A DNA stretch of 64,000 nucleotides, taken from Flavobacteriales bacterium. Its GTDB lineage: Bacteria > Bacteroidota > Bacteroidia > Flavobacteriales_C > GCA-002722245. The stretch is taken from the NCBI GenBank assembly GCA_947444925.1, contig CANFBW010000002.1, forward strand, positions 1 to 64,000, given 5' to 3'. Below the pieces are notes generated by a model. That model was not told the origin of the DNA. It saw only the letters and a program-made list of their open reading frames with translations, and searched no databases. Positions 4,418 to 64,000 of the stretch are shown in pieces. Position 1 is the first letter of the stretch, and every line of letters starts with the position of its first letter. A program made the position numbers and the translations under genes.

Positions 4418-4436
4418 ATATAAATAATAATGCTCT

Positions 4437-7400
4437 TTATTTGAGTATCACCAGTTTTTCAGTTTTTTCAGCGTAGTGACCTCCGTCACTTTGCACTTTC
4501 AAACGATAAACGTAAACCCCTCTTCCAATGGCATCTCCGAAATCGTCTTTGCCATCCCATGGAATTGGATTGGGTTTGTAACGTTCAGATCCATCAATTG
4601 TTGTGTTGATGGTTTTTACCAAATGTCCTGAAATGGAAAAGATTTGAATTTGCACTTGCAAGGTCGCGCTTGCCTGATTGTGTTCAAACCAAAATTCAGT
4701 GTGTGTTGTAAATGGATTGGGATAATTCAACACATGGCTCAAAGCCATTTCGGCCGAGGAAGAAACTACAAAAAGAGTGTTTTTTTCGGACGAATTGTTG
4801 TTGACGTCCCATACTTTTAGACTCAGTTGATGCTCTCCTTCCGCCAAATTGGAGAGGGGATAAGTAATTGTTCCTTTTTTATAGCTGTCGAGATCGGCTT
4901 CATAAAAGGTGTTCAATATGAGCGACTGGTTACTTTGCTTGTCGAGCATTGCTACGATATCGTGTCCAATGTTGCTGCCTGCTGTGTTTATGCCGCTTTC
5001 GTCGGAAACGAGGGCGAATATTTTCGGACTTTCATTCGTCAGGCCACCATATATAAATGAGGAATCGTTCATGAAAAGGCGAATTTCTGGACCAGTATTG
5101 TCATTGGATCCATTGGGATCGGTGCCTCCGATGGTGAAATTTTCAAAAAAACCAGCCGCATCTTGGTCGCTGTTGTGGGCATAGTAGCTTATTTTGCCAT
5201 TGCCGTATTGGTAGTTGATGTCTTTTGGAACAATGAATTCAAAAGAGAATAGGCCATTTGTAACGCTGGCTTTTCCCTTGTATAGAATGTTGTTTTGTAG
5301 ACCGTAACTTACCGCTCCTTTATTACTGTTGTTAAGGGTTTGCATACTTTGTGACTTGTCATAAACAGTAGGATAAATAATGCCGTTGAAGCTTGGTAGA
5401 AACTGCCCAAGCTCATTGGTGATTTTTCCTTCTACTTTCACTTTCATCAATGCTTTGAGTGTGTCAGCATTAGGCACAACCGAATGCTGATTAATAGCGG
5501 TGGTCATTATTTTTTGTGACGGAAAAGCAAGGCTGATTGCCGGATCGCCCATCAGAAAAAACTTGCGTTTGTTGTTGTAAGTGCCATTGCTGGTTTGTGT
5601 CTTCGCTTGCAACAATGCTTGGCCTATAGTTGGACGATTGCCCTTCAAGGTGAAAAGTGAATCGAAGAAATTTTGCGAAAAGTCGAGATTGGACGAACCA
5701 AATACCAATCGTGTAGTGGTGAGCTGTCCAATGGCCCCGCCATCACCATTAAGTAATACATATTCTCCAGCTGAAACGCGTTGCGGGTCGTCAAAACGGC
5801 TGAATTCACAGGTTGCAGTGACGAAGAAAGGAAGTTTATTGAAATTTGTCCATTTGTTGATTTGTGAAATATTTAACACGCGCTCATCTGCCCAGCCTGC
5901 TGGTCCCCCATGGCCAATATAACTTAATATGAGTGCACCTTTAGACATCGCTTGTTCTATGGCAGTTTCAACATCAGGGTAGCGCGCGCCGCCAGCAGAA
6001 TTTTGTTTTTGATACGCGTCAAAATATATTTTTTGGTGGTTGTAAGTGCTGTCGATGGTACGCAACAATTTTGATAAGATTTCTGAACCACCAACATGTT
6101 CTGCATAATCGAAGTTGCCATTAGGATCACTGCCGTCGTCAGCAACAAAGACTACTTGGTTACGCCAATTGCCAAATTCAGGGTGCATTGAATTGTTAGA
6201 TGCTGCATGTCCGCTATATGCGATTATTTTTCGAACAATACCATCGGCTTGTGCCAAGGTAGTACATGGAATACGACCAATACCAACGTCGACATTGTCG
6301 GGAGAATTGCCTCCCATGTCGCCTTCGTTGTCATCGAGGAAGCCAAAAAAATCGTCGCTTGCGTATGTAGAGGAAGGGTCTATTGATTCTTGCGATTCGT
6401 ATACGGATACAAAATCACTAACGGTTATTTTTGATTTATAGTCATACGTACCATCGCCGAAAAGAAGCAAGTATTTCGGCAGTTCGTTGGTTGTTGATGC
6501 GTTTTTATAGAAATAGCGCATCATATTGCGAATGGCGCCTACATCTTTGGCACCAGAAGAAAATTCGTTGTAGACTTGATCGGGCGTAACAACGAGCACA
6601 TCAAGGCTGGAGTATTGTGTATGAAAAGCTGCTAATTTCTGCGCTGCGCTCAAAAACTCGGGCGCACAAACGATGACGTAGTCGGTGGTTTTTTTGCCGT
6701 GAATGTCTTGATTGGCAACGACTTCAACAAAGGTCGGTGCGTTAAAATTAGTGCCTGAAAATGAAATGTATTCTTTCAGCGTATCGGCGTCTTGTGTAAA
6801 CACGATTGCTCCTCCAGAGTAGTTGTAATCTTGCGTTTTTACATTGTAGCATGTTGTGATGTCCCAAAGCGACTGAGATAGCGCGGCGTTGGTGAGCATA
6901 TATTGTGCAACGTTATTGTGACCGCGGCTGATGCCATCTCTAAAAGTTATGGTGTTTCCCGTCATGGTTAGGTTTCGACGCGCTTGCACTTCAAGGTAAT
7001 TCAACCAACACTCGGCTTCGTTGGTTGGCAATTGGTAGTGCATATTGATGGAAAAGGCTGAGCTACTAGGAAAAAAAGAATTGTTCTTACTTGTTTTGAG
7101 TACGGCATAAATGTCGTCGTAACCGCCGGGAATTTGCGGTATGTTGGAGAAAGAAGCAAATGAGCTTCCGCTCAGCAGAAAACTAACGTTGTTGCCTGCT
7201 GTTTGCGACGAACGAACTGCGAATTCACTGTTCATTTTTGCGCCTGAACCAAGCACCATATTGGGGAAACTAAAATTATACGTGTAATCGTTTGTTGCAA
7301 TGTTAAAGTGGTCGCCAAACCATGTGCGTCCCGATTTAATGAGATTGTATAAGTCGCTTTCTTGATAAGCATAGTCGTCAAAGGTGCTCACATTGTGCGT

Positions 7401-8303
7401 CACTGCCTTTGCGCTTTGCGCTTGAGCACTTATCCTTTTGCCTGTTCCTGAATTAACAGTGATGAAGTAGTACGCCGCATCTGAGTACACATTATAGGAG
7501 TGTGCGTATTGAAGTGCTGTGGTGTCGTATCTCCATGTATGTGGGCCTTTTGCATAAAACAAAGCATAGTCAGCATCGTTGAATACCCCGTCATTTTCGC
7601 CGCTCACAAAAATGGCATTTTCTTGCAGGTCATCGGGCGTAAAAGTGTTGATTCGTTCAGGAAGCATGCCGCCTCCATTACCGAAAACCCTAATGTTGCG
7701 TGGGTCAATGTTGGCAACATTGACGCCCATTGTTTGCAGAAAGGCTTTGTCTATTTTGTATATTCCGCTGGCACTTATTTTTACTTTATACCAAGTTCCA
7801 GATGCCAATATACTGGAGTTGCCGTTTTTGTAAGAAGCTTTCCTTTCTGCTGCTTTTTCGCTGTGTACGGTGTTGATAATGTTGAACTGGAAAGAGAGCA
7901 ATTGCTCGATATTGCCCTGGGCATTTCTTCTAAGCGAAGAAATAAAAATTTGAGCGACACCATTTTTGAGGTGGGCTCCAATTTTTTTTTCAACGATAAA
8001 GTGATCGGGAATAGGAATGTCTTTAATCGTTTGTGCTCGATCGGGGCTGAGTTCAGCGACTTTAAGCACAGTGAATGCAACATCGAAAGATTGCAGTTGA
8101 CCAATTACTATTTCGTTTTTTTGAAAAAACGGCAATTGACCGTAAGGTTCTAATTCTGTTGCCGAAAAGAACGGTGACTGTAGCTTTTGAGCGCCTGCGT
8201 TGAACCATGTATTGTTCCATTGCAGGTTTGTTTCAGTTGCAAATGCTGCTGAAACAAAAGTGAAAAACAATATGGTACTTGATAAAAATTTCATGAACAT
8301 CAA
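4437..8303 (-). CDS. porU: type IX secretion C-terminal signal peptidase PorU, copy A
   Basis: 1288 aa C25 gingipain-like protease: SYIGHGGPAGW (His) and TATCEFSRFDDP (Cys); FlgD-like C-terminal region; next to porV. Confidence 0.9.
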   Translation of the reverse strand: MMFMKFLSSTILFFTFVSAAFATETNLQWNNTWFNAGAQKLQSPFFSATELEPYGQLPFFQKNEIVIGQLQSFDVAFTVLKVAELSPDRAQTIKDIPIPDHFIVEKKIGAHLKNGVAQIFISSLRRNAQGNIEQLLSFQFNIINTVHSEKAAERKASYKNGNSSILASGTWYKVKISASGIYKIDKAFLQTMGVNVANIDPRNIRVFGNGGGMLPERINTFTPDDLQENAIFVSGENDGVFNDADYALFYAKGPHTWRYDTTALQYAHSYNVYSDAAYYFITVNSGTGKRISAQAQSAKAVTHNVSTFDDYAYQESDLYNLIKSGRTWFGDHFNIATNDYTYNFSFPNMVLGSGAKMNSEFAVRSSQTAGNNVSFLLSGSSFASFSNIPQIPGGYDDIYAVLKTSKNNSFFPSSSAFSINMHYQLPTNEAECWLNYLEVQARRNLTMTGNTITFRDGISRGHNNVAQYMLTNAALSQSLWDITTCYNVKTQDYNYSGGAIVFTQDADTLKEYISFSGTNFNAPTFVEVVANQDIHGKKTTDYVIVCAPEFLSAAQKLAAFHTQYSSLDVLVVTPDQVYNEFSSGAKDVGAIRNMMRYFYKNASTTNELPKYLLLFGDGTYDYKSKITVSDFVSVYESQESIDPSSTYASDDFFGFLDDNEGDMGGNSPDNVDVGIGRIPCTTLAQADGIVRKIIAYSGHAASNNSMHPEFGNWRNQVVFVADDGSDPNGNFDYAEHVGGSEILSKLLRTIDSTYNHQKIYFDAYQKQNSAGGARYPDVETAIEQAMSKGALILSYIGHGGPAGWADERVLNISQINKWTNFNKLPFFVTATCEFSRFDDPQRVSAGEYVLLNGDGGAIGQLTTTRLVFGSSNLDFSQNFFDSLFTLKGNRPTIGQALLQAKTQTSNGTYNNKRKFFLMGDPAISLAFPSQKIMTTAINQHSVVPNADTLKALMKVKVEGKITNELGQFLPSFNGIIYPTVYDKSQSMQTLNNSNKGAVSYGLQNNILYKGKASVTNGLFSFEFIVPKDINYQYGNGKISYYAHNSDQDAAGFFENFTIGGTDPNGSNDNTGPEIRLFMNDSSFIYGGLTNESPKIFALVSDESGINTAGSNIGHDIVAMLDKQSNQSLILNTFYEADLDSYKKGTITYPLSNLAEGEHQLSLKVWDVNNNSSEKNTLFVVSSSAEMALSHVLNYPNPFTTHTEFWFEHNQASATLQVQIQIFSISGHLVKTINTTIDGSERYKPNPIPWDGKDDFGDAIGRGVYVYRLKVQSDGGHYAEKTEKLVILK

Positions 8304-49529: not shown

Positions 49530-51527
49530 ATGAAGTTGAATACCATGAAATTTGTATTATATTTTTTTGCGCTGCTTTCTTTCAATGCATTGTGCGCCCA
49601 AAGTGAAGATCCGAAGGATATAGAATACCACAATTATGATTGGAGCGCAACCGCATTGCGTAGTTCAATTTCAGTCGAAGAGGCGAAATTTGAAGTGGTA
49701 TACACAAAAGATTTTTTGGCTACTGAGTATATTTTGCTTGGTGATACACTTTTTGAATTCAATACGGTACACCGCAAAATAATGCTCAACACCGATGCAG
49801 GCGTTGATAATTTTAATAAGGTTTATATTTCGACCTATCAAGGACAAGTTGTTTTGATGTTGAAGGCGCGCTCGATTTCAAAAGATGGAAAGGTGACGGT
49901 GTTTGATAAAAGCAATATCAAACAAGTTGAAAACTATGAAAATGCCGGTCCTTACACGATCTTTGCCTTGGAAGGTGTTGAGGTGGGCAGCGAAGTGGAG
50001 TATGTGTATACGGTGAAAGTGGTGATGAACGATATTAACTACGATTCTCGTGTTTTTCAAAATACATTCCCCACTAAAAATTCACGTTTCGAATTTATTT
50101 ATCCGAAGCATTTGGTATTTGCATCGAAGTCTTACAATGGATTGCCTGATGCAACAACCGACAGCACTGCCGATGGAAAAAACAGATTCATTGTTGATGC
50201 TCCTTACATTCCTGCAGAATCAAACGACAAGTATGCGCCGGGTGATGCTGCTTTGCAACGCTTGGAATTTAAGTTCAGCAAAAATACATTGAAAGGAAAT
50301 GTGGAGAAAAACACTTGGGATGACGCCGCAAAAAAATTCTATGCAGCATTGTACGAAACTCGAGATGCCAAGGCGTACAAAAAAGAATTGAAGTCGGTTG
50401 ACAAGATGCTCAAAACATTGAAATTGAAGGATCTTCCTGAAGAAGAGCAGGTTCGAAAAGTGGAGCATTACATCAAGACCAATATTGAAATCAGCGGCGA
50501 TGCTTCTGCTTACTTTTTGTATGATGTGCTGGAGAAAAAAAGAACTTCAGCTTATGGTATGGCGCGCCTTTTTGCTTTTGCGCTGACTGCTGCGGGTATT
50601 GATCACCAATTGGTGATGACCAGCAATAGAAAACAAATTCCATTTGATGGCGAATTTCAGAGTTGGCATTATCTGCAAAAATTCTTGATGTATTTCCCAA
50701 AATACAATAAAGTGCTATCTCCCACAGATGTTGCGTTTCGCTATGGATTGGTGCCGAGTGGATTCGCGTATACCGATGGAATGGTGGTGAAAGTAATTGC
50801 TCTTGGCGATATGAAGAGCGCGGTGGCTCGAGTGATGCATATTGATGGTCCGGCTGACTCTTTGAACTATGACAATCTCTTTATCAATGCAGATTTTGGC
50901 GATGCTTTCGACGATTGCAAACTCAACGTTGAACGTCGTATTTTGGGCTATGAAAGTGTGTCGTTTCAATCGCAGGTTAAATTTTTGAAGGCAGAGCAAA
51001 AAGAAGAACTGGCCAACAATCTGCTTAAGTTTGCGGGCGAAGATGCACAGGTCATTGAGCATCAATTTGCCGATGAAAAAGAAGGTGATGTTTTTGCCAA
51101 TCCATTTGTGCTCAGAGGAAAAGTACAAGTAAATTCACTGCTTGAAAAAGCAGGTAATAAATACCTTTTCAACATAGGGAGCACCATTGGCCGTCAAGAG
51201 GAAATGTATCAAGAAAAAGAACGTGTTTCCGACATCGAAATAGATTATCCGCATTCGTATTTGCGTGAAATAAAATTCAATGTGCCTGAAGGTTTCGTGG
51301 TGAAAAATATGGAAGAATTAAATATGGATGTTTTCGCACTGGAAGACGGGAAGAGAACGATGGCTTTTACTTGTAGTTATGTTCAACAAGGGAATACGTA
51401 TATTGTGTCGGTAAAGGAGTATTATTCGGAAATCCGCTTGCCTAAAACGGCCATTGATGTTTTTAGAAAAGTAATCAATGCGGCAGCCGACTTCAATAAA
51501 AAACAACTGATTATTCAAAAAAAGTAA
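49530..51527 (+). CDS. DUF3857-like protein with degenerate transglutaminase core
   Basis: Similar layout to upstream gene; the RYGDCKDM position reads KRTSAYGMARL (no Cys). Confidence 0.75.
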   Translation: MKLNTMKFVLYFFALLSFNALCAQSEDPKDIEYHNYDWSATALRSSISVEEAKFEVVYTKDFLATEYILLGDTLFEFNTVHRKIMLNTDAGVDNFNKVYISTYQGQVVLMLKARSISKDGKVTVFDKSNIKQVENYENAGPYTIFALEGVEVGSEVEYVYTVKVVMNDINYDSRVFQNTFPTKNSRFEFIYPKHLVFASKSYNGLPDATTDSTADGKNRFIVDAPYIPAESNDKYAPGDAALQRLEFKFSKNTLKGNVEKNTWDDAAKKFYAALYETRDAKAYKKELKSVDKMLKTLKLKDLPEEEQVRKVEHYIKTNIEISGDASAYFLYDVLEKKRTSAYGMARLFAFALTAAGIDHQLVMTSNRKQIPFDGEFQSWHYLQKFLMYFPKYNKVLSPTDVAFRYGLVPSGFAYTDGMVVKVIALGDMKSAVARVMHIDGPADSLNYDNLFINADFGDAFDDCKLNVERRILGYESVSFQSQVKFLKAEQKEELANNLLKFAGEDAQVIEHQFADEKEGDVFANPFVLRGKVQVNSLLEKAGNKYLFNIGSTIGRQEEMYQEKERVSDIEIDYPHSYLREIKFNVPEGFVVKNMEELNMDVFALEDGKRTMAFTCSYVQQGNTYIVSVKEYYSEIRLPKTAIDVFRKVINAAADFNKKQLIIQKK

Positions 51528-52043: not shown

Positions 52044-54836
52044 ATGAAACTAAGACTACTATTGTTTTTATCCTTATTGTATTCGGCGGTAACGCTGGCT
52101 TTTTCGCCCAGCATGTACACATTCACCGCGAGTGAATACGACAATCACCAAGAGAATTACAGTGCAGTATACAACAATTCTGGATTGCTCTATGTCGCCA
52201 ATGCATACGGTTTACTTGAGTATGACGGATACGAGTGGAATAGGATTGCGTTGCCTGACGGCAAGAGTCCTGTTTCATTGTGCTTAAAAGACGGCGTGGT
52301 ATATGTTGGAGGCAACGATGAGTTTGGTTACATCAAGTACTCGCGCGGTGCACCTTCTTGCTATCAATCATTGGCGTCGTTACTGCCAACTGCTGAGAAG
52401 AATAAAATTGGTTGGCTTGACCATTGCGTGGAGGCGAATGGCAAAGTGTATTTTTCAAACAACGAAAAGGTGATCGTTTACGATGGCCAGTCGGTTTTGG
52501 TGCTAAAGCCTACAAATGGAAATTCGTTTTTGTCGCTTGATTACAGCATGGGGCAGTTGTTTCTTTTTGAGAAGGGTAGAGGAATTGGCGTTTTTGAAAA
52601 CAACGACATTGAATGGATGGGCAGTTCTGTTGCGAATTTGAATGTGGTGAACATAGAGAAAGTGTCTTCTAAGTTGTACTACTTGTATACTGTTGATGGT
52701 ATTTACAAATTTGATGGTGTACACGCTGAAAAAATCGAGAAAACTAATTTTTTGAGTACGCTTGTTGTAACGCAAGTGCTGGCAAAAGGCAGTAAAAAAG
52801 TGCTGTGCACGGAACTGGGCGGCGTTTATATTTTAGACGATCAATTGGATGTGCAATCTCATTTTGACCACAGCAACAGCAAGCTCAGTACAAATTTTAT
52901 TTATGGTGTGGCTGAGAACAAAGAAGGTGATCTTTGTTTTGCAAGTGCGAATGGGATTGCACTTTTGAACGCGAGTTCGTCACTCTTGAATATTGACGCA
53001 GCAAGTGGTTTGTATGGCGCAGGGTATTGTTCTTTGTTGGTAGGTGATACTATGTATTTAGGGACTTCGCAGGGCTTGTTTTTTGCGCCGAATTGGAAGT
53101 TGAAAGGGGAAAAGAAATTTCAAAAGGTAGCCAATGTAAAAGCCTATGTTTACGACATTCATTTGCAAAATGGGGCATTGTTTTGCGGTAACCGAGCTGA
53201 AATGTATCAAATTATGTCCGATGGCGCGAAGGTGATTTCTCCAAGCACTTATCGCGGTGCATGGGGCATACACGCAGTTCCTGGCAGAGATGATGTTTTT
53301 TTGGTAGGTACCTATTCGGGCATCGATGTGTATCGTTTTGAAAACAAGGAATGGAAATTTTCAAATGCAATAGAGGGCTACACTGCGCCAGGCCGAAATT
53401 TTGAATTTGATGAAGAAGGCAATATTTGGGTGGCGAGTGGATTGGCTGGATTGTATAAATTAAGTATTTCCAAAGATTTTGCAAAGGTGTTGAAGAGTGA
53501 GGAGTTTTGTAAAAAATTCGCTGTTAAAAGCGACTATTTTATAGAACTGATAGAATGTGGAAAAACAATTTTAGTATCGTCTTATGGCGGTGTTTTTAAA
53601 GTTGAAAATGGCGCTTTGGTGAAGGATGCTGCATTCACTGCCTTGGGTTTGCCCTTTGAGCGCCTTCGAAAAATAAATAACGATTTGATATATACAGTTC
53701 AAAAGAGAACACCCATCGTTTTGCGTCGCAAAGGGTCTGTTTTCACGCTCGATTCAGCACATATTTTAAACAACGTGAATATAGAGTTGATTGGTAATTC
53801 AGAGTGGATCAGCACCAGCTCTCCTGATGAATACATGGTTGGAACGCCCGATGGTTTTTTGCTCTCCAACAACGCTTCTCTCAAAAAATATTACGGTAAA
53901 CTCACCGTTCGTAAAATTCAAAACATCAATACTGACAGCACGGTGATTGGTGGCAATGTTGACGAAATTGCAGTTTCATATGACAATCATGATCTACGTT
54001 TTACTTTTGCATACTCACCTTTAGAGCGTTTTTATTCGCTTGATTGGTACGTGCTTTTAGAAGAAGACGGCGCGGGCGAATGGAAGAAAGTAGAGAAGGC
54101 GCATTTTAAAGAGTTTTCAAATTTACGCGAAGGCGACTACACGTTGCGCGTTAAGGTAATGTGCCGTTACAATACCTTAGACGAAACCAGTGTTTCTTTT
54201 AAAGTACTTCCTCCGTGGTACCGAAGTTCTTTAGCAAAGGTGCTGTATTTGCTTTTGTTTTTGTTGACCGTGTTTTTGGTATACCGATTTACACAACATC
54301 GGGTAAAAAAAGTGAGTGCAAAAATGCAGGCCGAGAAGGAAAGAGAATTGATGGTGCAAGAAAAAGAATTCAAGGCTGAGTTGCTGAAAAAGGAGTTGCA
54401 AGAAAAAGAAACGGAGATGTCATATATGGCATTGAATTATAGTCAGAAAAAAGATTTGCTAGAACATGTGAGTGACAAGCTGAATGAATTAATGGGCAAG
54501 CTGGATGATCCGCGCGCATTGCGCGCGGAGATAAAAGGACTGGAGTTCTCGTTGAATAAATCGGAAGATGGTGAAGAACGAAAGTGGCAGGAATTTCAAG
54601 TGCTTTTCAATAGAGAACACAACGACTTTTTAGATAAAATCAAAGTGCTTGATCCAAAAATAAAGGAATCAATGCTGCTTATGTGTGTTTATATTAGAAT
54701 GGGCAAAAGCAACAAAGACATTTGCGACCTCATCAATATTTCGATCACCGCGCTCGACAAAAGAAAATCGCGCCTGCGCGAGAAATTCAATGTTGCAGGA
54801 GAGCTCACGCTGAATGAGTTTTTGCGTTTGCTTTAA
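52044..54836 (+). CDS. membrane-spanning beta-propeller / Y_Y_Y sensor with cytoplasmic coiled coil and HTH output (copy A)
   Basis: Signal peptide, propeller repeats, single TM (VLYLLLFLLTVFLVYRF), C-terminal SNKDICDLINISITALDKRKSRLREKF HTH. Confidence 0.85.
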   Translation: MKLRLLLFLSLLYSAVTLAFSPSMYTFTASEYDNHQENYSAVYNNSGLLYVANAYGLLEYDGYEWNRIALPDGKSPVSLCLKDGVVYVGGNDEFGYIKYSRGAPSCYQSLASLLPTAEKNKIGWLDHCVEANGKVYFSNNEKVIVYDGQSVLVLKPTNGNSFLSLDYSMGQLFLFEKGRGIGVFENNDIEWMGSSVANLNVVNIEKVSSKLYYLYTVDGIYKFDGVHAEKIEKTNFLSTLVVTQVLAKGSKKVLCTELGGVYILDDQLDVQSHFDHSNSKLSTNFIYGVAENKEGDLCFASANGIALLNASSSLLNIDAASGLYGAGYCSLLVGDTMYLGTSQGLFFAPNWKLKGEKKFQKVANVKAYVYDIHLQNGALFCGNRAEMYQIMSDGAKVISPSTYRGAWGIHAVPGRDDVFLVGTYSGIDVYRFENKEWKFSNAIEGYTAPGRNFEFDEEGNIWVASGLAGLYKLSISKDFAKVLKSEEFCKKFAVKSDYFIELIECGKTILVSSYGGVFKVENGALVKDAAFTALGLPFERLRKINNDLIYTVQKRTPIVLRRKGSVFTLDSAHILNNVNIELIGNSEWISTSSPDEYMVGTPDGFLLSNNASLKKYYGKLTVRKIQNINTDSTVIGGNVDEIAVSYDNHDLRFTFAYSPLERFYSLDWYVLLEEDGAGEWKKVEKAHFKEFSNLREGDYTLRVKVMCRYNTLDETSVSFKVLPPWYRSSLAKVLYLLLFLLTVFLVYRFTQHRVKKVSAKMQAEKERELMVQEKEFKAELLKKELQEKETEMSYMALNYSQKKDLLEHVSDKLNELMGKLDDPRALRAEIKGLEFSLNKSEDGEERKWQEFQVLFNREHNDFLDKIKVLDPKIKESMLLMCVYIRMGKSNKDICDLINISITALDKRKSRLREKFNVAGELTLNEFLRLL

Positions 54837-54970: not shown

Positions 54971-57760
54971 ATGAAGTTGAAGTTATTCGGATTGTTTTTT
55001 GTGCTCAATAGCTGTTTTGCGTTTGCCTTTTCTCCGGCCATATATACTTATACCACTAAAGAATATGACGGTAGGCAAGACAACACCAGTGCGGTATTCG
55101 ATGGAGAAGGCTTGTTGTATGTAGCCAACGCATATGGTCTGCTTGAATACGATGGATACAAATGGCAGAAGATACCATTGCCTAATGGGAAGAGTCCTGT
55201 TTCATTGTGTGTGTATGACAAAAAAGTGTTTGTTGGCGGTAATGATGAGATAGGGTATGTTTCACGCAATGCAGCAGGATTGTCAGTTTACCACTCGCTT
55301 TTACCTTTGTTGGCCGATAGCTTGAAAAAGCAAATAGGATGGATGACTTATTGCGTTGAAGCGGAAGGGAAGGTTTATTTTCTTACCGATCAGCGTATGT
55401 TCGTTTTTGATGGAAAAGGAATTAGTGTTGTACGGCCCAGAAGTGGTGGTAAATTCACGAGCATCGCACGTTCACAGGGTCATGTTTTGCTTTTTGAAAA
55501 GGGAAGAGGCTATGCGCTTTTGGCCAATGGAAAAACGACATGGGTAGAAGGGGTTTTTAAAAATTTGGAAGTGCGCGGAGTGGAAACAATTGGACGCGAA
55601 TTGGTGTTGTATGCCACTGATGGCATTTACAAATACGATGGACTTCGACTTGAGCAACTTGGTAAAACAGCCTTTTTGGCAAAAGAAATCATTACTCGTG
55701 TGATCGCTGACCAAGCGAGAAAAGTGGTTTGTACGGAGCTTGGTGGGGTTTATGTGCTCGATGCGCAATGGGAAGTGCAGCACCACTTTGATCAAAGCAA
55801 CAGTAAACTTACTACCAATTATATTTATGGTGCGGCGGAGAACAAGGAAGGCGACCTTTGCCTTGCCACCGACAATGGCATTTCTTTGGTAAATTTAGGA
55901 GCATCAGTATTGCACATCGATGTGTCGTCGAACCTTTACGGAGCGGGCTTGTCTTCGCTGCTTGTAGGAGACACCATGTATCTCGGTACTTCTCAGGGTT
56001 TGTTTTTTGCTCCATATTGGAGCGGTAAGGGCGAAAAAAAGTTTATTAAGGTGCAAGGTGTTAAGGCATTTGTGTACGACATTCATATGCAGAATGGCGC
56101 ACTGTTTTGCGGCAATCGTTCAGATGTATATCAAATTCGCGGCAATTCGGCGGTGGTCATATCTCCGGAAAGCAATCGCGGAGCCTGGGGACTGCACTCT
56201 GTTTCTGGAAAGAAGAATGTTTTTTTGGTGGGCACTTATTCGGGCATTGATGTTTACAGTGAAAATAATGGAAAATGGTCTTTTTCTCATAAAATAGGCG
56301 GCTATAATTTACCGGCAATGAATTTAGAAATTGATGACGATGGCAATATATGGGTGGCAAGCGGTTTGTCGGGGTTCTATAAACTAGTCGTTGACCGCGA
56401 TTTCAACAAAGTGCTTGCCACTGAAGATTTTTGCGAGAAATTGAAGTTATCGAAGGATTATTTTATTGAACTCATCAAAGTAAACAATTCAATTTTAGTC
56501 TCCTCTCATGGCGGGCTTTACAAAGTGGAAAGCGGGCAGTTGCTAAAAGATGCTTATATGAATGGGTTGGGGTTGCCTTTTGAACGAATTAGAAAAATTA
56601 GCAATGGACTCATTTATACCTTGGACAATAAAACGCCTACGGTATTGAAGTTGGGCTCCAAAGGCTTTGTGATCGATACTGCTCATATTTTGAATCGTTT
56701 GAAGGTAGAGCTTATTGGCAATTTTGAATTGATTGATCAATTTGCCGATCAAAATTATTTAGTGGGCACTTCTGAAGGCTTTATACTTGCTAATAATGCA
56801 GTGCCCAAAAAATATTATGGAAAGGTGTCGTTGCGCAAAATTCAAAATATGTACAATGACAGTTTACTGGCAATGGCCGGGGATAAAGGCGCAGTAATTG
56901 CTTTGCACGACAACAATTTGCGTTTCACTTTCGCCTATTCACCCTTGGAGCGTTTTTATGATGTTGATTGGTACGCTATGCTTGAAGAAGAAGGAAAGGG
57001 CGTATGGATCAAAGTGGAAAATGCACATGTAAAGGAGTTTTCAAATTTGCAGGAGGGGGACTATATTTTTCGCATGAAGGCCGTATGTCGCTATACTACG
57101 CTTGATGAGAGCGCATTTTCATTCACTATTTTGCCTCCATGGTACCGAACTTCTTTGGCGAAAGTGATATATCTTTTGCTTTTATTGAGCGCTGCCTATC
57201 TCGCTTACCGCATGTCTCAGCGACGACTGGAGAAGGTAACAGATAAAATGACAGAGGAAAAGGAACAAGAATTACTGTTGCAAGGCAATGAGTTCAAGGC
57301 TGAATTGCTTAAAAAGGAATTACAAGAGAAAGAAAGCGAAATGTCTTTTATGGCGTTAAATTACAGTCAGAAACGTGAATTGATGGAGAGTGTTAGCGAT
57401 AAGCTGGGTGATTTGCTTGGGAAACTTGAGGATCCGCGTGCGCTTCGTGTTGAGATTAAGGGTTTGATTAATTCGCTCAACAATTCTGACGGAGATGAAG
57501 AAGTGAAATGGCAGGAATTTCAAATTCATTTTAACAAAGAGCACAATGACTTTTTGGAAAAAATAAAGGCGATGGATCCGAAAATCAAAGAATCAGTGCT
57601 ATTGATGTGCACATATATCAGAATGGGCAAGAGCAATAAAGACATTTGCAATTTGCTCAATATCTCTATCAATGCGCTCGACAAGCGCAAATCTCGTTTG
57701 CGGGAAAAATTCCTGATCGCCGAAGAAATAACGGTAAACGAATATCTTCGGCAGTTATAG
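54971..57760 (+). CDS. membrane-spanning beta-propeller / Y_Y_Y sensor with HTH output (copy B, tandem paralogue)
   Basis: 929 aa, co-linear with 52044-54836; SNKDICNLLNISINALDKRKSRLREKF HTH. Confidence 0.85.
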   Translation: MKLKLFGLFFVLNSCFAFAFSPAIYTYTTKEYDGRQDNTSAVFDGEGLLYVANAYGLLEYDGYKWQKIPLPNGKSPVSLCVYDKKVFVGGNDEIGYVSRNAAGLSVYHSLLPLLADSLKKQIGWMTYCVEAEGKVYFLTDQRMFVFDGKGISVVRPRSGGKFTSIARSQGHVLLFEKGRGYALLANGKTTWVEGVFKNLEVRGVETIGRELVLYATDGIYKYDGLRLEQLGKTAFLAKEIITRVIADQARKVVCTELGGVYVLDAQWEVQHHFDQSNSKLTTNYIYGAAENKEGDLCLATDNGISLVNLGASVLHIDVSSNLYGAGLSSLLVGDTMYLGTSQGLFFAPYWSGKGEKKFIKVQGVKAFVYDIHMQNGALFCGNRSDVYQIRGNSAVVISPESNRGAWGLHSVSGKKNVFLVGTYSGIDVYSENNGKWSFSHKIGGYNLPAMNLEIDDDGNIWVASGLSGFYKLVVDRDFNKVLATEDFCEKLKLSKDYFIELIKVNNSILVSSHGGLYKVESGQLLKDAYMNGLGLPFERIRKISNGLIYTLDNKTPTVLKLGSKGFVIDTAHILNRLKVELIGNFELIDQFADQNYLVGTSEGFILANNAVPKKYYGKVSLRKIQNMYNDSLLAMAGDKGAVIALHDNNLRFTFAYSPLERFYDVDWYAMLEEEGKGVWIKVENAHVKEFSNLQEGDYIFRMKAVCRYTTLDESAFSFTILPPWYRTSLAKVIYLLLLLSAAYLAYRMSQRRLEKVTDKMTEEKEQELLLQGNEFKAELLKKELQEKESEMSFMALNYSQKRELMESVSDKLGDLLGKLEDPRALRVEIKGLINSLNNSDGDEEVKWQEFQIHFNKEHNDFLEKIKAMDPKIKESVLLMCTYIRMGKSNKDICNLLNISINALDKRKSRLREKFLIAEEITVNEYLRQL

Positions 57761-58085
57761 ACATACTGTTCAATTGCTGTTCTTTCTATGGTGTTTGAGT
57801 GCTAATGATTATTGTGCCGCTATTGTTGATGGTTCTCGGTACATGTTTTAGTGGATGCGCAAAGTAATTTTGTGGCAAATGAATGATAGTAATTCAATGG
57901 TTGAATTTCATTTGCTGGCTCCCTTATTTATTTTGCAAACAATTGAAAGTAAAAGACTTGAGTTTTTGCTACGTGTAAAGTCAGTGTCGCGCTTTTGACG
58001 TGACATCTTGTTGTTAAAAATTCTCAAATCCTTTGTTTACAACAACTTTATTTTGAGAAACACTTGACATCGCCTCAATAATTGC

Positions 58086-58093
58086 TATATTTG
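58086..58093 (+). promoter_or_regulatory. promoter -7 element (TATATTTG) of sRNA copy 1
   Basis: TATATTTG exactly 5 nt before the closing-stem 5' strand, as in the other two copies. Confidence 0.7.
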
Positions 58094-58098
58094 TGTAC

Positions 58099-58293
58099 GC
58101 TTGCTTTGTTGATAGAAATAGTAGTAGTGTAAAATTGCGTAGTTCTTTACAAGTTAGTTAGTAGTATCAAAGTTAAGTTATACCCCCTATAATAGCTTTG
58201 AAATTTTAGTCTACAACAAAGCAAGCTTTCTTGTAAAATCACTGATAACATTGAGTATATAGAAGCCTCCCTCAAAAAAGGGAGGTTTTTTTT
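58099..58293 (+). ncRNA. structured small RNA, copy 1 (stem element 58099-58226 plus tail and terminator)
   Basis: GCTTGCTTTGTTG..CAACAAAGCAAGC perfect 13-bp closing stem, A bulge, TAGA/TCTA; TCAAAG/CTTTGA + TTATA-CCCCC-TATAA hairpin. Confidence 0.8.
58266..58293 (+). terminator. Rho-independent terminator of sRNA copy 1
   Basis: CCTCCC-tcaaaaaa-GGGAGG followed by T8. Confidence 0.9.
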
Positions 58294-58485
58294 GTAACAA
58301 AAAACTCCCTTTTTCAACTACTATTTTAATTGCATTCCCTCTTGGGTATCGCAACTACTTCGAATTTGAATAAACGTCTTGATGTCAATTACTTAACTTT
58401 TTATTACGTGCAGTGTCAGTGCTATAAAATTAGCCTGGAGGTGTTTTGTACGGCGCCAGAAATAGCGAATAGTTCTTTGCTGCTG

Positions 58486-58493
58486 TACATTTG
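58486..58493 (+). promoter_or_regulatory. promoter -7 element (TACATTTG) of sRNA copy 2
   Basis: TACATTTG exactly 5 nt before the stem. Confidence 0.7.
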
Positions 58494-58498
58494 ACTAT

Positions 58499-58699
58499 GC
58501 TTGCTTCGTTGCTAGAAATAGTAGTAGTAGTAAAAATTGCGTAGTTCTTTTACAAAAGTTAGTTAGTAGTAATCAAAGCCAATACTATACCCCCCTTTAG
58601 TGACTTTGAAACAAAAATCAATTCTACAACGACGCAAGCATTTTATTTGTACACAAGAGTAGCAGTTTATATGAAAGCCATCCGTTAGGGTGGCTTTTT
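58499..58699 (+). ncRNA. structured small RNA, copy 2 (stem element 58499-58639 plus tail and terminator)
   Basis: GCTTGCTTCGTTG..CAACGACGCAAGC (12/13 pairs), C bulge, TAGA/TCTA; TCAAAG/CTTTGA hairpin with C6 loop. Confidence 0.8.
58674..58699 (+). terminator. Rho-independent terminator of sRNA copy 2
   Basis: AAAGCCATCC-gtta-GGGTGGCTTTTT. Confidence 0.85.
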
Positions 58700-58933
58700 C
58701 ATTTTCCTCCCTTTTGCGAAAGCGGAATTGTGAGCGTGTTCATTGCCATACGAAAGTGCCGGCGAAACAGCTTTGAGAAACCACCGATCGAGTAGTTTTT
58801 ACACTTTACATTTTGTTAAATTATTGAATATCAAATATTTAATAATTTGTATACGTATAGAGTCAGTGATTTATAGCTGGTAGTAGAGGTGTTTTGTACA
58901 GGCGTAAAACTGGCAATGGGCACTTCCTCATTG

Positions 58934-58941
58934 TATATTTG
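58934..58941 (+). promoter_or_regulatory. promoter -7 element (TATATTTG) of sRNA copy 3
   Basis: TATATTTG exactly 5 nt before the stem. Confidence 0.7.
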
Positions 58942-58946
58942 AATAT

Positions 58947-59152
58947 GCTAGCTCGGTTGTTAGAAAAGTAGTAGTAGTAAAAATTGCGTAGTTCTTTTAC
59001 AAAAGTTAGTTAGTAGTAATCAAGGTCAATACTATACCCCCCTTTAGTGACTTTGAATCAAAAATCAAATCTACAGCCGAGCTAGCTTTTTCATTTGTAA
59101 GTAATTTAACATCATAAAAAAAGCCCTTTCGTTTTGACGAAAGGGCTTTTTC
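58947..59152 (+). ncRNA. structured small RNA, copy 3 (stem element 58947-59086 plus tail and terminator)
   Basis: GCTAGCTCGGTTG..CAGCCGAGCTAGC (12 Watson-Crick pairs + 1 G-U), U bulge, TAGA/TCTA; TCAAGG/CTTTGA hairpin with C6 loop. Confidence 0.8.
59116..59152. terminator. terminator of sRNA copy 3, probably bidirectional (also faces the 59167-59484 gene)
   Basis: AAAAAGCCCTTTCG-ttttga-CGAAAGGGCTTTTT, A-run and T-run on both sides. Confidence 0.9.
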
Positions 59153-59166
59153 TTTGTGTAGTTTTT

Positions 59167-59484
59167 TTATTTCGCAGTCAACAAAACCCTAATGTCAACC
59201 ATTTCTTCTCTGTTGTATTTGTTGTCAGAACCTTTCAGTAATTCAACGAAGTAATGAAATTTGTTTTCACCTTCTTCTGGGCCTTCAAATTCAAGATCAA
59301 AAGCGCCATTTTGCTCAATGTATTCTCTTGACAAGCGCAATAATTTTGTTGCCAAAGGATCTTCTTCCGCAAGCGCATAATTTCTGATTTCAGTCAATTT
59401 TGCTGCAACTGCAGCAACATCGAAATTCTTGTCGGTGCTTTTGATCAAGTCGTCAAGAAGTTTGTTTGCTTTAGGATCTTTCAT
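59167..59484 (-). CDS. hypothetical small acidic protein
   Basis: 105 aa ORF with no signal peptide. Confidence 0.6.
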   Translation of the reverse strand: MKDPKANKLLDDLIKSTDKNFDVAAVAAKLTEIRNYALAEEDPLATKLLRLSREYIEQNGAFDLEFEGPEEGENKFHYFVELLKGSDNKYNREEMVDIRVLLTAK

Positions 59485-59593: not shown

Positions 59594-62221
59594 TCAGCGC
59601 AATAAAAGGACGTGTCCAATTTGTTCTTTTTTTGATTTTTTCCCGTTTTCAAGGTCCACACTGTACAGTACTTTGTAAACATAAACGTCTTCCTGCGCAG
59701 CTTGTCCATTGTAGCTTCCATCCCATCCTATAGTTTGATTATTGCTTTTAAAGATGATTTCACCCCAACGATTGAAAACCAGTAATTCATAGTCTTCGAT
59801 GTTGCGCGCGTAAGGGTAAAAAATATCGTTGTGGCTATCGTTGTTGGGTGTAAAGCAGTTGGGTACAAAAAAGGAGTTTTCGCAATAGTTGAATATGGTG
59901 ATGCTGTCGCTGCTACTGCAGTTTTTTTGGCTGATGAGTAGGGTGTATGTTCCTGGATTTTGCGCCAAAATGTTGGTGCTGGTGTCGCCCGTGCTCCACC
60001 GAAGTTTCAGCTGCGGGTCGCTAATTCCTGAGCGCAATTGCAAAGCGTTGTGTTCATTAAAGCAGAAATTGGAAGGTAGGTTTTGTGCTTGTAAAACCTG
60101 TTGCGGAAGTGAGATCTCGCTTGCAACTATGGTGTCGCTTGAAGCGCATGATCCATTGCTAACCTTGACGATGTATGTGCCTCCTGCGGAGACTGTGATT
60201 TTGTTTGTTTTGCTATTGTTGTTCCAAAGAAAACTGTAGCCAGGACTCGTATTTCCTGCGTCCAATATTTGTTTATTGCCACTGCAAAGGATAAAGGTGT
60301 CAATACCTCCCAATAGACTTAGCGATGGTTTTTTTTTGAAAGTAGCGAGCAGTGAATCGCTTGAGCTACAATTATCGGTGCTCGTGGCTGTGAGGGTGTA
60401 TAGGTCACTGCTGTTGATGAGCAATGAGGACGTGTTGCCTTGCAATGCCGCACCGGAGCTCTTTTTTGTCCACGCGTAATTTAGATCAATGGAGGTAATG
60501 CCAGCTGAAATTAACGTGCTCGTTCCTTCGCAAGGTGCAATACTATTAAGCAAATCGACTTGCGGTTTAGGGTGCACGATTACATTTATGACGACACTAT
60601 CTTTACATGTCGTTTGTGTGTTTGACACTATTACTTTGTAAGCATCGCTCGTAGTTGGGTTAAATGTTGGGGCAGTATTGGTGATGGGTGACCATTGGTA
60701 ATTGTAGTCGGCGCCAAAATCGTAACCAATTTTTTTATTTTCCCCAGTGCACATACTCATTGAATTTGGAATCAGCGCCACATTGGGTAGTGTTTGCGTT
60801 TTCACATCAATAGTTGCGCTGGCACTGCAGCCTTTGCTGTCGGTAAAAATTGCGTTATAGCTTCCGGCAATGGTTGTGGTGATGGATGAACTAAGCGCTG
60901 TTTTTGGCCCTGTCCATTGGTAGCTGAAGGGATTCGTTCCACCACTTAAAGTCGGACTCAAAACCACGCTTGCACCACTGCAAATGCTTGCCGTTGCAGC
61001 GCTGAAAGCCAAGTTAATGGCTGGGTCAATGGCGATGTTGATACTTCCTGATCCGCTACAGTTACTGCTATTCGTGACATTTACGGTGTAGGTGCCAGCG
61101 GTGCTAACTGTTTTTGTTGCTGTATTTTCTCCAGTTGACCAAAGGTAAGTGCTTAAGCCTGCACCGGCGTTTAGGGTGATATTTTGCCCGAAGCATAAGA
61201 TGGTGTCTTTACCGAGATCAACGTTGAGTTTATTGGAAAACGTGACATTAATGCTGTCGCTGTTTTTGCATCCTTTGTTGCTGGTTACTTCTACTGCGTA
61301 ATTGCCTGATGTGCTTACCGAGATGGAAGACGCGGTGCTACCTTTTGTGTTATTCGACCAAGAATAGTAAGAAAAAGAAGGTCCTGCATCAAGTGTTGCC
61401 GCTGTTGCTGCGCAAATGTTTTTGTCGGTTCCAAGATCAAAAATTGGTTTAGCGTTAAGCGCAACCTTAACGGTATCGAGCACTTTGACAGTGTCTTTCC
61501 GAGTGAAACTCACATCGTCGAGCATGAAATCATTGCCGTCTAAAGAATTGTTTTTGTTGATGATGCAAATTTCAACTGAAGTGCTGACGCCGGAGTTCCA
61601 ATTTTGTTTGAAATTATTCCAAGAACAAACTGTTGGGGTCGCTTTAAAGGAAGTGCCTGGCGCAACACCATTAAAGGTGAATTGCATAATTGCAGGGTAG
61701 GTGCTTGTAGCCGAACTCAACCAAACACCCATGGTATAATTGGTGTTTGGATACACACTAACGTTTTGACACCACAATTTTTGATTCAAGGTGCTGGTTC
61801 CATTGGCAACCATCATGTTTCCAGTTCCACTGTGGTCGGGACAACTTGTGAAATCTCTGTGTGCTTTTGCGGCATTGTCTGTGACTTGGTAGTCGCCAGC
61901 TGTATAGATGTTTACTGTATTGTAATTGTATGCAGAAGTGAAGCTGCTATTGCCTCCTTGAAAATTTCCATTGACAACGAGGTTTGTGAGTGGGTCGTAA
62001 TCGTATCCAGTAACAGAATAAGTTCCGTTTTTTTTAACCTTTAGTGTTGTGCCTGTGCTGCCGTCGTTCCATAAATACTTGACATAGGGGCCACTTACTG
62101 AAAAGACAATGCTGTCGCCATCACAAATTGAAGTATCCTTCCCCAAATTTATTTGAGCGGAAACAATGTGACCAAAAAGGCAGGCAAAAATAAAGAGAAT
62201 AGAGCCTTGTTTCTTTTTCAT
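59594..62221 (-). CDS. secreted multi-PKD/Ig-like protein with gliding motility-associated C-terminal (CHU_C-type) domain
   Basis: Repeats such as TYLWSTGENTATKTVSTAGTYTVNVT; C-terminus VPNCFTPNNDSHNDIFYPYARNIEDYELLVFNRWGEIIFKS. Confidence 0.88.
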   Translation of the reverse strand: MKKKQGSILFIFACLFGHIVSAQINLGKDTSICDGDSIVFSVSGPYVKYLWNDGSTGTTLKVKKNGTYSVTGYDYDPLTNLVVNGNFQGGNSSFTSAYNYNTVNIYTAGDYQVTDNAAKAHRDFTSCPDHSGTGNMMVANGTSTLNQKLWCQNVSVYPNTNYTMGVWLSSATSTYPAIMQFTFNGVAPGTSFKATPTVCSWNNFKQNWNSGVSTSVEICIINKNNSLDGNDFMLDDVSFTRKDTVKVLDTVKVALNAKPIFDLGTDKNICAATAATLDAGPSFSYYSWSNNTKGSTASSISVSTSGNYAVEVTSNKGCKNSDSINVTFSNKLNVDLGKDTILCFGQNITLNAGAGLSTYLWSTGENTATKTVSTAGTYTVNVTNSSNCSGSGSINIAIDPAINLAFSAATASICSGASVVLSPTLSGGTNPFSYQWTGPKTALSSSITTTIAGSYNAIFTDSKGCSASATIDVKTQTLPNVALIPNSMSMCTGENKKIGYDFGADYNYQWSPITNTAPTFNPTTSDAYKVIVSNTQTTCKDSVVINVIVHPKPQVDLLNSIAPCEGTSTLISAGITSIDLNYAWTKKSSGAALQGNTSSLLINSSDLYTLTATSTDNCSSSDSLLATFKKKPSLSLLGGIDTFILCSGNKQILDAGNTSPGYSFLWNNNSKTNKITVSAGGTYIVKVSNGSCASSDTIVASEISLPQQVLQAQNLPSNFCFNEHNALQLRSGISDPQLKLRWSTGDTSTNILAQNPGTYTLLISQKNCSSSDSITIFNYCENSFFVPNCFTPNNDSHNDIFYPYARNIEDYELLVFNRWGEIIFKSNNQTIGWDGSYNGQAAQEDVYVYKVLYSVDLENGKKSKKEQIGHVLLLR

Positions 62222-62456
62222 GTATATAGCGCCAAAGTTTCAATGAGCAAACCTTGGGGCATTTAAGATAGACATCTGTGCAGTATTCAAAAAATTTATT
62301 TTGCTGAATTGCGGCAATAGACTACCTCTTTTTGTTTTTAAATATATGATGTTGAGTCGGTTGAGAAAATGTAAAGTCATAATTGGAATATGTAAAGCAT
62401 TTTTTGGAGTATGGGGTCTATCTTGCCGTCAGCTAAAAACCAAACTTAATTCAGCT

Positions 62457-64000
62457 ATGAAAAAACTACTATTAACAACATGGGGGGTCGCTACTTCGAT
62501 CGGTGCTTTAAATGCACAAACTCATGATTATGCCTTAGCTCAAAAATTATCCACACGATTTTTAGGCGCTCAACGCTGCGGTAATACCGGCTCATGGATG
62601 CACGGCGCTTGCCATACTCAGGATGGCGCCGCTGTTGGTAAAGATTTAAGCGGTGGCTGGCATGATTGCGGAGATTATATTAAGTTCCACCACACCGGCC
62701 CTTATGCTGCAGTAATGTATTTAACAGCGTATGAAGCTTTCCCTGCGGCTTATGCCGATGATTATTCACCCGCCAATTCTGCGGGTAGTCCGAACGGTAT
62801 TCCTGATATTTTAGATGAAGTAAAAATTGAAACTGATTACTTGATAAAGGGTGTTCAAAACGGAACGGTATATTGGCAAGTGGGTGGAGCAGAGGATCAC
62901 GACAGTTTTTCGGAGCCCGTAAGTTGCTCTTCTGAAAAATTGTATTCGGGATCAGCTACGCGACCGGTTTTTTCTACTACTTCAGGTTACTCCAATGCCT
63001 GTGGAAATGCCGCTGCTGCTTTGGCTTTAATGTCGATAGTTTACAAACCATATGATGATGCGTATGCCACTCAATGTTTGCAAAAGGCGATTGAATATTA
63101 TAACGTCGGGAAAATCAGTCCGGCCAGCTCCAACGCTAATCCGATTGATTTTTATAGCTTCTCAGATTACAAAGATGAAATGGGTTTAGCGGCTGCTGTA
63201 ATTTACAGAGCGGGAAATAAAGCCACTGGTTCTTATTTAACCGAAGCGCAAAGTTATGCCATAGGTTTCAATACCGGAGATCCTTTGTATTATGGAAATG
63301 TGTCTTATCTGGGGTATTTAGAATTGTACAGATTAACATCCGGTTCAACAGCTACGGGATATTTAAATAAAGTTGCTGCTGAGGTGACCAAAGTAAAAAA
63401 TGCAATGGGTAGCTGCGGATATTACCATTACGATAATTGGGGGAGCTTAGTGTATGCTGCGAACGAAGCAATGTTGGCTGCTTTGTATCATCAGATTTCT
63501 AATGATGCTACAGCCTATGCTTTTGCAAAAAACAACATCAATTTTATTTTAGGAACTCATAGCGCGGTTCCTGCGTCTGATGCACCTGCAAATTTCTCTT
63601 TTGTGATTGGGTACAATAAATTAGGTGGAGGTTCCCCTAAGTCGCCGCAACACGCTGCGTCTTTTGGTTATACTACTGCACAAGATCCTTGGACCAAATT
63701 TACTAACGAAACCAATAACCCCGGATCGGTTACATTTAAATATCCTTTGAACGGAGCTTTGGTAGGAGGATTGCAAAAAAAATGCACACTATGGTCGGCA
63801 AGTACAGGGAAAGCAAATTATGAGGATAAAATTGATAATTATGTGGGCAATGAGGTTTGTACTTATTACAATGCCGGATTAACAGGTGCCTTGGCTTATA
63901 TCAATATGATTGAAAACAGCATTCCAACAGCTAATGCCGATGTAAAAGTGCACACTGCTTTAAATGTATATCCAAATCCTGCAAACGATCAAATAGTTAT
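62457..64000 (+). CDS. glycoside hydrolase family 9 endoglucanase with C-terminal T9SS sorting domain (truncated by window end)
   Basis: My translation: MKKLLLTTWGVATSIGALNAQ...LSGGWHDCGDYIKFHHTGP...GIPDILDEVKIETDYLIK...NYVGNEVCTYYNAGLTGALAYI...ALNVYPNPANDQIVI; open to the last base, absent from the supplied track. Confidence 0.9.
   Translation, partial: MKKLLLTTWGVATSIGALNAQTHDYALAQKLSTRFLGAQRCGNTGSWMHGACHTQDGAAVGKDLSGGWHDCGDYIKFHHTGPYAAVMYLTAYEAFPAAYADDYSPANSAGSPNGIPDILDEVKIETDYLIKGVQNGTVYWQVGGAEDHDSFSEPVSCSSEKLYSGSATRPVFSTTSGYSNACGNAAAALALMSIVYKPYDDAYATQCLQKAIEYYNVGKISPASSNANPIDFYSFSDYKDEMGLAAAVIYRAGNKATGSYLTEAQSYAIGFNTGDPLYYGNVSYLGYLELYRLTSGSTATGYLNKVAAEVTKVKNAMGSCGYYHYDNWGSLVYAANEAMLAALYHQISNDATAYAFAKNNINFILGTHSAVPASDAPANFSFVIGYNKLGGGSPKSPQHAASFGYTTAQDPWTKFTNETNNPGSVTFKYPLNGALVGGLQKKCTLWSASTGKANYEDKIDNYVGNEVCTYYNAGLTGALAYINMIENSIPTANADVKVHTALNVYPNPANDQIV

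Follow-up and report, generated by a model that had tools for sequence, protein, structure and literature searches.

6S RNA is broadly conserved, and the protein-sponge RNAs CsrB and RsmY are characterized by repeated motifs, with CsrB showing GGA in hairpin loops to CsrA. In Bacteroides, the sRNAs FopS and GibS are associated with the RRM protein RbpB, which binds single-stranded parts of multicopy sRNAs. FopS acts near the start codon of susC-type mRNAs to repress them, and it has been deposited in Rfam (PMC11697453). According to the account of Adams 2021 given in PMC12119571, RbpB prefers GUAGGAUA over UCCUGUGC. The Musashi RRM has the consensus RUnAGU with the core UAG, and GUUAGU is among its SELEX elements (PMC10942595). 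The locus described here lies in a window of 64,000 nucleotides from a member of the Flavobacteriales (genome G000), and it carries three tandem RNA genes in which UAG elements are repeated within a conserved core.

Organization of the Array

The array is located in DNA without any ORF of note (57760–59167), between a convergent gene pair: a gene for a sensor-like protein of 929 aa, which stops at 57760, and a minus-strand gene for a 105-aa protein. The three units begin at 58099, 58499 and 58947, which places the starts 400 and 448 bp apart. Each of them contains a 13-bp closing stem (P1), a 1-nt bulge and a TAGA/TCTA pairing, and TAnnTTTG boxes are found at 58086, 58486 and 58934. The terminators of the three copies are unrelated in sequence. 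The first-pass annotation had described this copy number and spacing, the ORF-free DNA, the boxes, the stem with its bulge and the unrelated terminators, and all of these features were recovered (Table 1). Judging from the promoters, the terminators and the conservation, each unit is predicted to be an intergenic RNA gene that is transcribed from its own promoter to its own terminator as an RNA of ~195–205 nt. An additional exact copy of the ATTGCGTAGTTC 12-mer is present at 49655–49666, inside a 665-aa ORF, and most likely occurs there by chance. It was rejected as a target since it lies in a coding gene and has the same orientation as the RNA.

Table 1. Features of the three-copy array, with positions in the window (G001, G003 and G004 are array-free relatives)
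Feature	Position	Strand	Details
Copy 1 promoter	58064–58093	+	TTGACA 58064–58069, 16-nt spacer, -7 box TATATTTG 58086–58093
RNA copy 1 including terminator	58099–58293	+	P1 58099–58111/58214–58226, bulge 58112, then 58113–58116/58210–58213
Copy 1 hairpin and terminator		+	P3 58167–58201; terminator stem 58266–58285; T-run 58286–58293
Copy 1 invariant core	58118–58166	+	RUnAGU linkers, ATTGCGTAGTTC 58134–58145; 7 RUnAGU sites
Copy 2 promoter	58437–58493	+	Box GGAGGTGTTTTGTAC 58437–58451, -7 box TACATTTG 58486–58493
RNA copy 2 including terminator	58499–58700	+	P1 58499–58511/58627–58639, bulge 58512, then 58513–58516/58623–58626
Copy 2 hairpin and terminator		+	P3 58573–58609; terminator stem 58673–58698
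Copy 2 invariant core	58517–58572	+	AATAGTAGTAGTAGTA, ATTGCGTAGTTC 58536–58547, GTTAGTTAGTAGTA; 8 RUnAGU sites
Copy 3 promoter	58885–58941	+	Box AGAGGTGTTTTGTAC 58885–58899, -7 box TATATTTG 58934–58941
RNA copy 3 including terminator	58947–59152	+	P1 58947–58959/59074–59086, bulge 58960, then 58961–58964/59070–59073
Copy 3 hairpin and terminator		+	P3 59020–59056; terminator stem 59118–59151
Copy 3 invariant core	58965–59019	+	AGTAGTAGTAGTA, ATTGCGTAGTTC 58983–58994, GTTAGTTAGTAGTA; 7 RUnAGU sites
105-aa gene, convergent, flanking anchor of the array	59167–59484	-	No Pfam match; surroundings array-free in G001, G003 and G004

Distribution and Novelty

A covariance model built from the three window copies (R1), the search that had been proposed for this locus, was run against 60 related genomes and matched only G002 and G005. 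These two further species of the genus carry the same three-copy tandem array, which brings the total to nine copies, the third copy in G005 being cut by a contig end. A pattern scan of public sequences gave JAHEZL010000015.1 (Flavobacteriales MAG nzgw150) and JAPLEZ010000155.1 (Bacteroidetes MAG, LacPavin) as the contigs of these two species. A nine-copy model (R2) found nothing beyond the three species, either in the order (11 genomes) or in the class (395 genomes). The R1 and R2 scans were run under strict filters. An exact relaxed pattern matched only two of the three species in 85,462 GTDB genomes, and no match was obtained in IMG/VR with this exact relaxed pattern or in phage and plasmid collections.

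Rfam 15 gave no match at the gathering cut-off across the whole window, and a permissive E-value added only terminator-driven noise. This was the check that the first-pass annotation had called for, and its proposal of a candidate new sRNA family has held up through the lack of an Rfam match, the arrays in two more species and the covariation of the closing stem. The array RNAs almost certainly constitute a real structured sRNA family. The family is new, undescribed and lineage-restricted, with a very narrow range of three species of one genus. It provides a clean example of a structured sRNA family that is under strong constraint and is seen in one small clade only.

The 105-aa gene was recovered from all genomes of the family but G005, where a short contig stops within the array. 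Its product is conserved across both genera of the family, with 38–43% identity in the second genus. In the sister species G004, the gene order is the same as in the window, namely a 665-aa protein, a cupin, the sensor and the 105-aa protein, and the window has a second, paralogous sensor. The gap between the sensor and the 105-aa gene in G004 is only ~55–60 bp and contains no array, and at the corresponding junction in G001 there is nothing but a terminator-like hairpin. In eight relatives that lack the array, scanning the 105-aa locus with the full model likewise gave only terminator-like hairpins and noise. As the sister species are array-free at this junction, the array was either acquired within the group of G000, G002 and G005 or lost outside it.

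Large Ig-repeat proteins with a CHU_C domain (type IX secretion) adjoin the array, at 59594–62221 on the minus strand of the window and at 3432–7925 on the plus strand of locus L013. The position of the CHU_C protein differs between G000 and G002, indicating that the neighbourhood of the array has been rearranged. A cellulase-type glycosyl hydrolase family 9 (GH9) gene is located at 62301–63998 on the plus strand and is kept beside the 105-aa gene in G002.

Structure and Selection

All three window copies fold more stably than their dinucleotide shuffles (z = -4.6, -2.9 and -4.9 for copies 1, 2 and 3, respectively). The compensatory changes claimed for the closing stem were seen exactly as described, with T-A/T-A/A-T at position 4, T-A/T-A/C-G at position 8 and T-A/C-G/G-C at position 9, together with a T-G pair at position 11 of copy 3 and a mismatch at position 7 of copy 2. 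Covariation was examined further on the nine copies by shuffle and slide controls. Nine of the 17 P1 pairs have changed on both sides, and the covariation score of 0.175 exceeds the value in shuffles (0.106 ± 0.013; 0 of 500 shuffles match it). Paired cells fall from 96.5% to 35–46% when the partners are slid; the nine-copy alignment was fitted to a model containing the closing stem and favours it, and the stem was also read directly in the three window copies. These results support the earlier suggestion of selection on RNA structure.

The hairpin P3 (UCAAAG.../CUUUGA) is situated inside the core, has a loop of five to six C residues and keeps its pairing through changes. Its lower position 8 and its upper position 2 are each C-G, U-G or U-A among the copies. 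The same annotation had proposed a nearly invariant, single-stranded core; the near-invariance stands, and the core is not wholly single-stranded since P3 lies within it. When G000 is compared with G002, 2 of 106 aligned sites in the interior of copy 2 and 3 of 103 in that of copy 3 are different (2–3%), against 6 of 35 and 11 of 35 in their P1 arms; the counts for the interior of copy 1 are inflated by alignment shifts. At four-fold synonymous sites, the same two genomes differ by 53% in the 105-aa gene, 57% in the GH9 gene and 65% in the sensor. Sequence comparison shows that P1, variable but always paired, and the internal hairpin P3 with its C-rich loop frame an almost invariant core.

Candidate hairpins between P1 and P3 are invariant, so that comparison cannot test the fold there. 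The hairpin GUAAAA/UUUUAC around AUUGCGUAGUUC is not claimed, as its computed pair probability is at most 0.03 and it never varies, and an alternative interior hairpin favoured by RNAalifold is likewise invariant. The linkers are only partly unpaired in energy models, with a mean unpairedness of 0.41–0.61 for AGUAGUAGU and 0.49–0.78 for the second linker.

Promoters and Possible Regulation

The promoter of copy 1 (TTGACA-16-TATATT) matches 11 of the 12 hexamer positions and is kept in G002 and G005. Copies 2 and 3 are without TTGACA and have a GGAGGTGTTTTGTAC box with at most one change each, while the intervening sequence has diverged. In the three species, the six promoters of copies 2 and 3 all place this box at precisely the same distance from the -7 box, 49 nt upstream. 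A constant spacing combined with poor -35 sequences points to an activator site, for which the GGAGGTGTTTTGTAC box is a candidate. The copies could then supply two kinds of dosage. Copy 1 would give a basal dosage via the TTGACA/TATATTTG promoter, and copies 2 and 3 would give a regulated dosage via an activator that recognizes the GGAGGTGTTTTGTAC box. In the G000 genome, the promoter core GGTGTTTTGTAC occurs at 45 sites when up to one mismatch is allowed, versus 25 for the reversed control. In a search for a wider regulon, the other GGTGTTTTGTAC sites read in this genome had no -7 box at the 49-nt spacing, and a wider search for the promoter core in six genomes gave counts near the control.

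Two tandem paralogous proteins of ~930 aa are encoded upstream of the array at 52044–54836 and 54971–57760. Both have a signal peptide-like start, a transmembrane-like stretch and a C-terminal HTH-like region, and the first shows a weak Y_Y_Y domain. In the G002 contig and in the G004 region, the ~930-aa sensor-like protein is matched only once close to the array site. The two proteins are possible local regulators and candidates for the activator presumed at the GGAGGTGTTTTGTAC box.

Possible Functions of the Array RNAs

The core consists mainly of overlapping UAG elements (AUAGUAGUAGUAGU, GCGUAGUUC and GUUAGUUAGUAGU). RUnAGU sites number 7–8 per copy in all nine copies, compared with 0.28 on average in windows of 141 nt, although the motif was picked after the sequence had been seen and its consensus is that of the Musashi RRM, which may differ from that of the host RRM proteins. 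Among 25,544 windows on both strands of the 64 kb, those with at least seven sites all fall inside the three copies, and 25, 0 and 3 of 5000 dinucleotide shuffles reach the observed number for the three copies. The G000 genome has two RRM genes (RbpA/B-like), at G000:C4:36157-36366 and G000:C3:66842-67051, and the one that was read out encodes just one RRM followed by a Gly-rich tail. No Hfq was detected in the order, in a search in which the positive controls were detected. The P1 clamp would present the core as a multivalent platform for the RRM proteins of the cell. By titrating or scaffolding them, as CsrB and RsmY do with CsrA, the RNAs would alter the action of these proteins on mRNAs or sRNAs.

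A multivalent RRM-protein ligand or sponge is the best and most economical mechanism suggested by the sequence, although it is put forward tentatively and at somewhat less than even odds. The nearest solved structures of the RRM proteins include the non-UAG binders HuD and PABP, which makes specificity unreadable from sequence, and the conservation also covers parts other than UAG, such as AUUGCG and the C-rich loop. In three sister species the array is missing although each has two or three RRM genes, which means that RRM proteins do not need the array. The reported preference of RbpB for GUAGGAUA and the conserved promoter layout count in favour of the sponge reading. The more specific proposal of a dedicated RRM-protein RNA decoy in Bacteroidota is rather unlikely as a whole. 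It would be a CsrB-type system of one small clade, in which a UAG code and a eukaryote-like RRM replace GGA and CsrA, one copy being basal and two being controlled by an activator.

Nearly as likely as the RRM sponge, and likewise short of probable, is that the copies are sibling base-pairing sRNAs. Common single-stranded seeds (the UAG linkers, AUUGCGUAGUUC and the C-rich P3 loop) would then act on shared mRNA targets by antisense, with copy number setting the dosage and separate promoters receiving different inputs, as in FopS, LhrC1-5 and the Neisseria siblings. This is the mode of most described multicopy sRNAs, including FopS of Bacteroides. The separate promoters and terminators and the invariant core fit it, and they would fit an RRM partner too. 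However, the conserved interior of ~100 nt extends far beyond one seed. Complements of AUUGCGUAGUUC with at most one mismatch in three genomes revealed no common start-codon target in the loci read, which weighs lightly as it concerns one 12-nt seed, and in these genomes their counts were near the reversed-pattern control once RNA genes were set aside.

Less likely again, and doubtful overall, is a structured RNA with some other partner, such as RNA polymerase, the ribosome or another protein, acting as an RNP regulator of the 6S or some other kind. The closing stem, the large conserved interior and the length of ~200 nt recall 6S-like architecture, and the near-complete invariance fits a constraint from protein or tertiary structure. 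Nevertheless, the 6S-Flavo and Bacteroidales-1 models did not match the three copies, and only three species have the array RNAs, whereas 6S RNA has a broad distribution. The best 6S-Flavo match elsewhere in the G000 genome is at G000:C16:41251-41361 (L069:1501-1611), with 35.8 bits against a cut-off of 85. A locus of similar sequence, G003:C38:558-666 (L070), has a below-cut-off Bacteroidales-1 match. These two loci probably represent a diverged 6S RNA of the genus that is missed by the Rfam cut-offs. A 6S identity of the array RNAs is not supported, given the lack of a model match and this separate sub-threshold candidate.

Two other RNA classes were also considered. A Y RNA is not supported, as no TROVE/Ro protein is found in G000 or G002; a TROVE/Ro-type protein is encoded at G005:C60:39289-40011, the only one among 11 genomes of the order. 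A retron was rejected because no reverse-transcriptase-like ORF is present among the neighbours read. Finally, the ATG ORF of 15 codons in copy 2 (58497–58544, MLASLLEIVVVVKIA), perhaps a hydrophobic peptide, has its frame open in copies 2 and 3 of G002 and copy 3 of G005, but coding is very improbable since copy 1 lacks such an ATG in every species, a UAG ends the frame after 8 codons in copy 3 of G000 and copy 2 of G005, and the constraint falls on every core nucleotide and on P1 pairing rather than on codons.

How small RRM proteins of Bacteroidota select and release RNAs is a wider question in an order in which Hfq is undetected. With seven or eight RRM-type sites packed closely into a short RNA, three copies of it here and none in sister species, the array offers a direct test of whether the RRM proteins are bound and titrated.

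Comparison with Known Systems

The array RNAs resemble FopS/GibS of Bacteroides (PMC11697453) in that they are paralogous intergenic sRNAs of Bacteroidota that share a conserved sequence and each have a promoter and a terminator of their own. FopS is ~65–70 nt long and consists of a single-stranded 5′ stretch (the R1 seed) and a terminator, whereas the array RNAs are ~200 nt long, have a closing stem that shows covariation as well as an internal hairpin, carry repeated UAG in the core and lack an Rfam match. Owing to these differences in length and architecture and the lack of an Rfam match, they are not placed in the FopS/GibS family. The 6S-Flavo (RF01685) and Bacteroidales-1 (RF01693) sRNAs come from Bacteroidota as well and are 100–200 nt long, but the array copies match neither model.

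LhrC1-5 and other sibling sRNAs (PMC5880928; class PMC4211561) are similar in that several sRNAs of almost the same sequence have conserved segments in common and an inducible promoter is present. The array RNAs, too, are paralogous, have their own promoters and terminators and share a conserved segment. No sequence relation to LhrC1-5 was found, and the promoter type of array copy 1 clearly differs from that of copies 2 and 3. With CsrB and RsmY, the array shares repeated short motifs of a protein-recognition type in a structured RNA and the presence of several paralogous copies, and several such motifs occur in each of the nine RNAs. Unlike in CsrB, the repeat is UAG and mostly falls outside the supported helices, and an RRM protein would be the partner.
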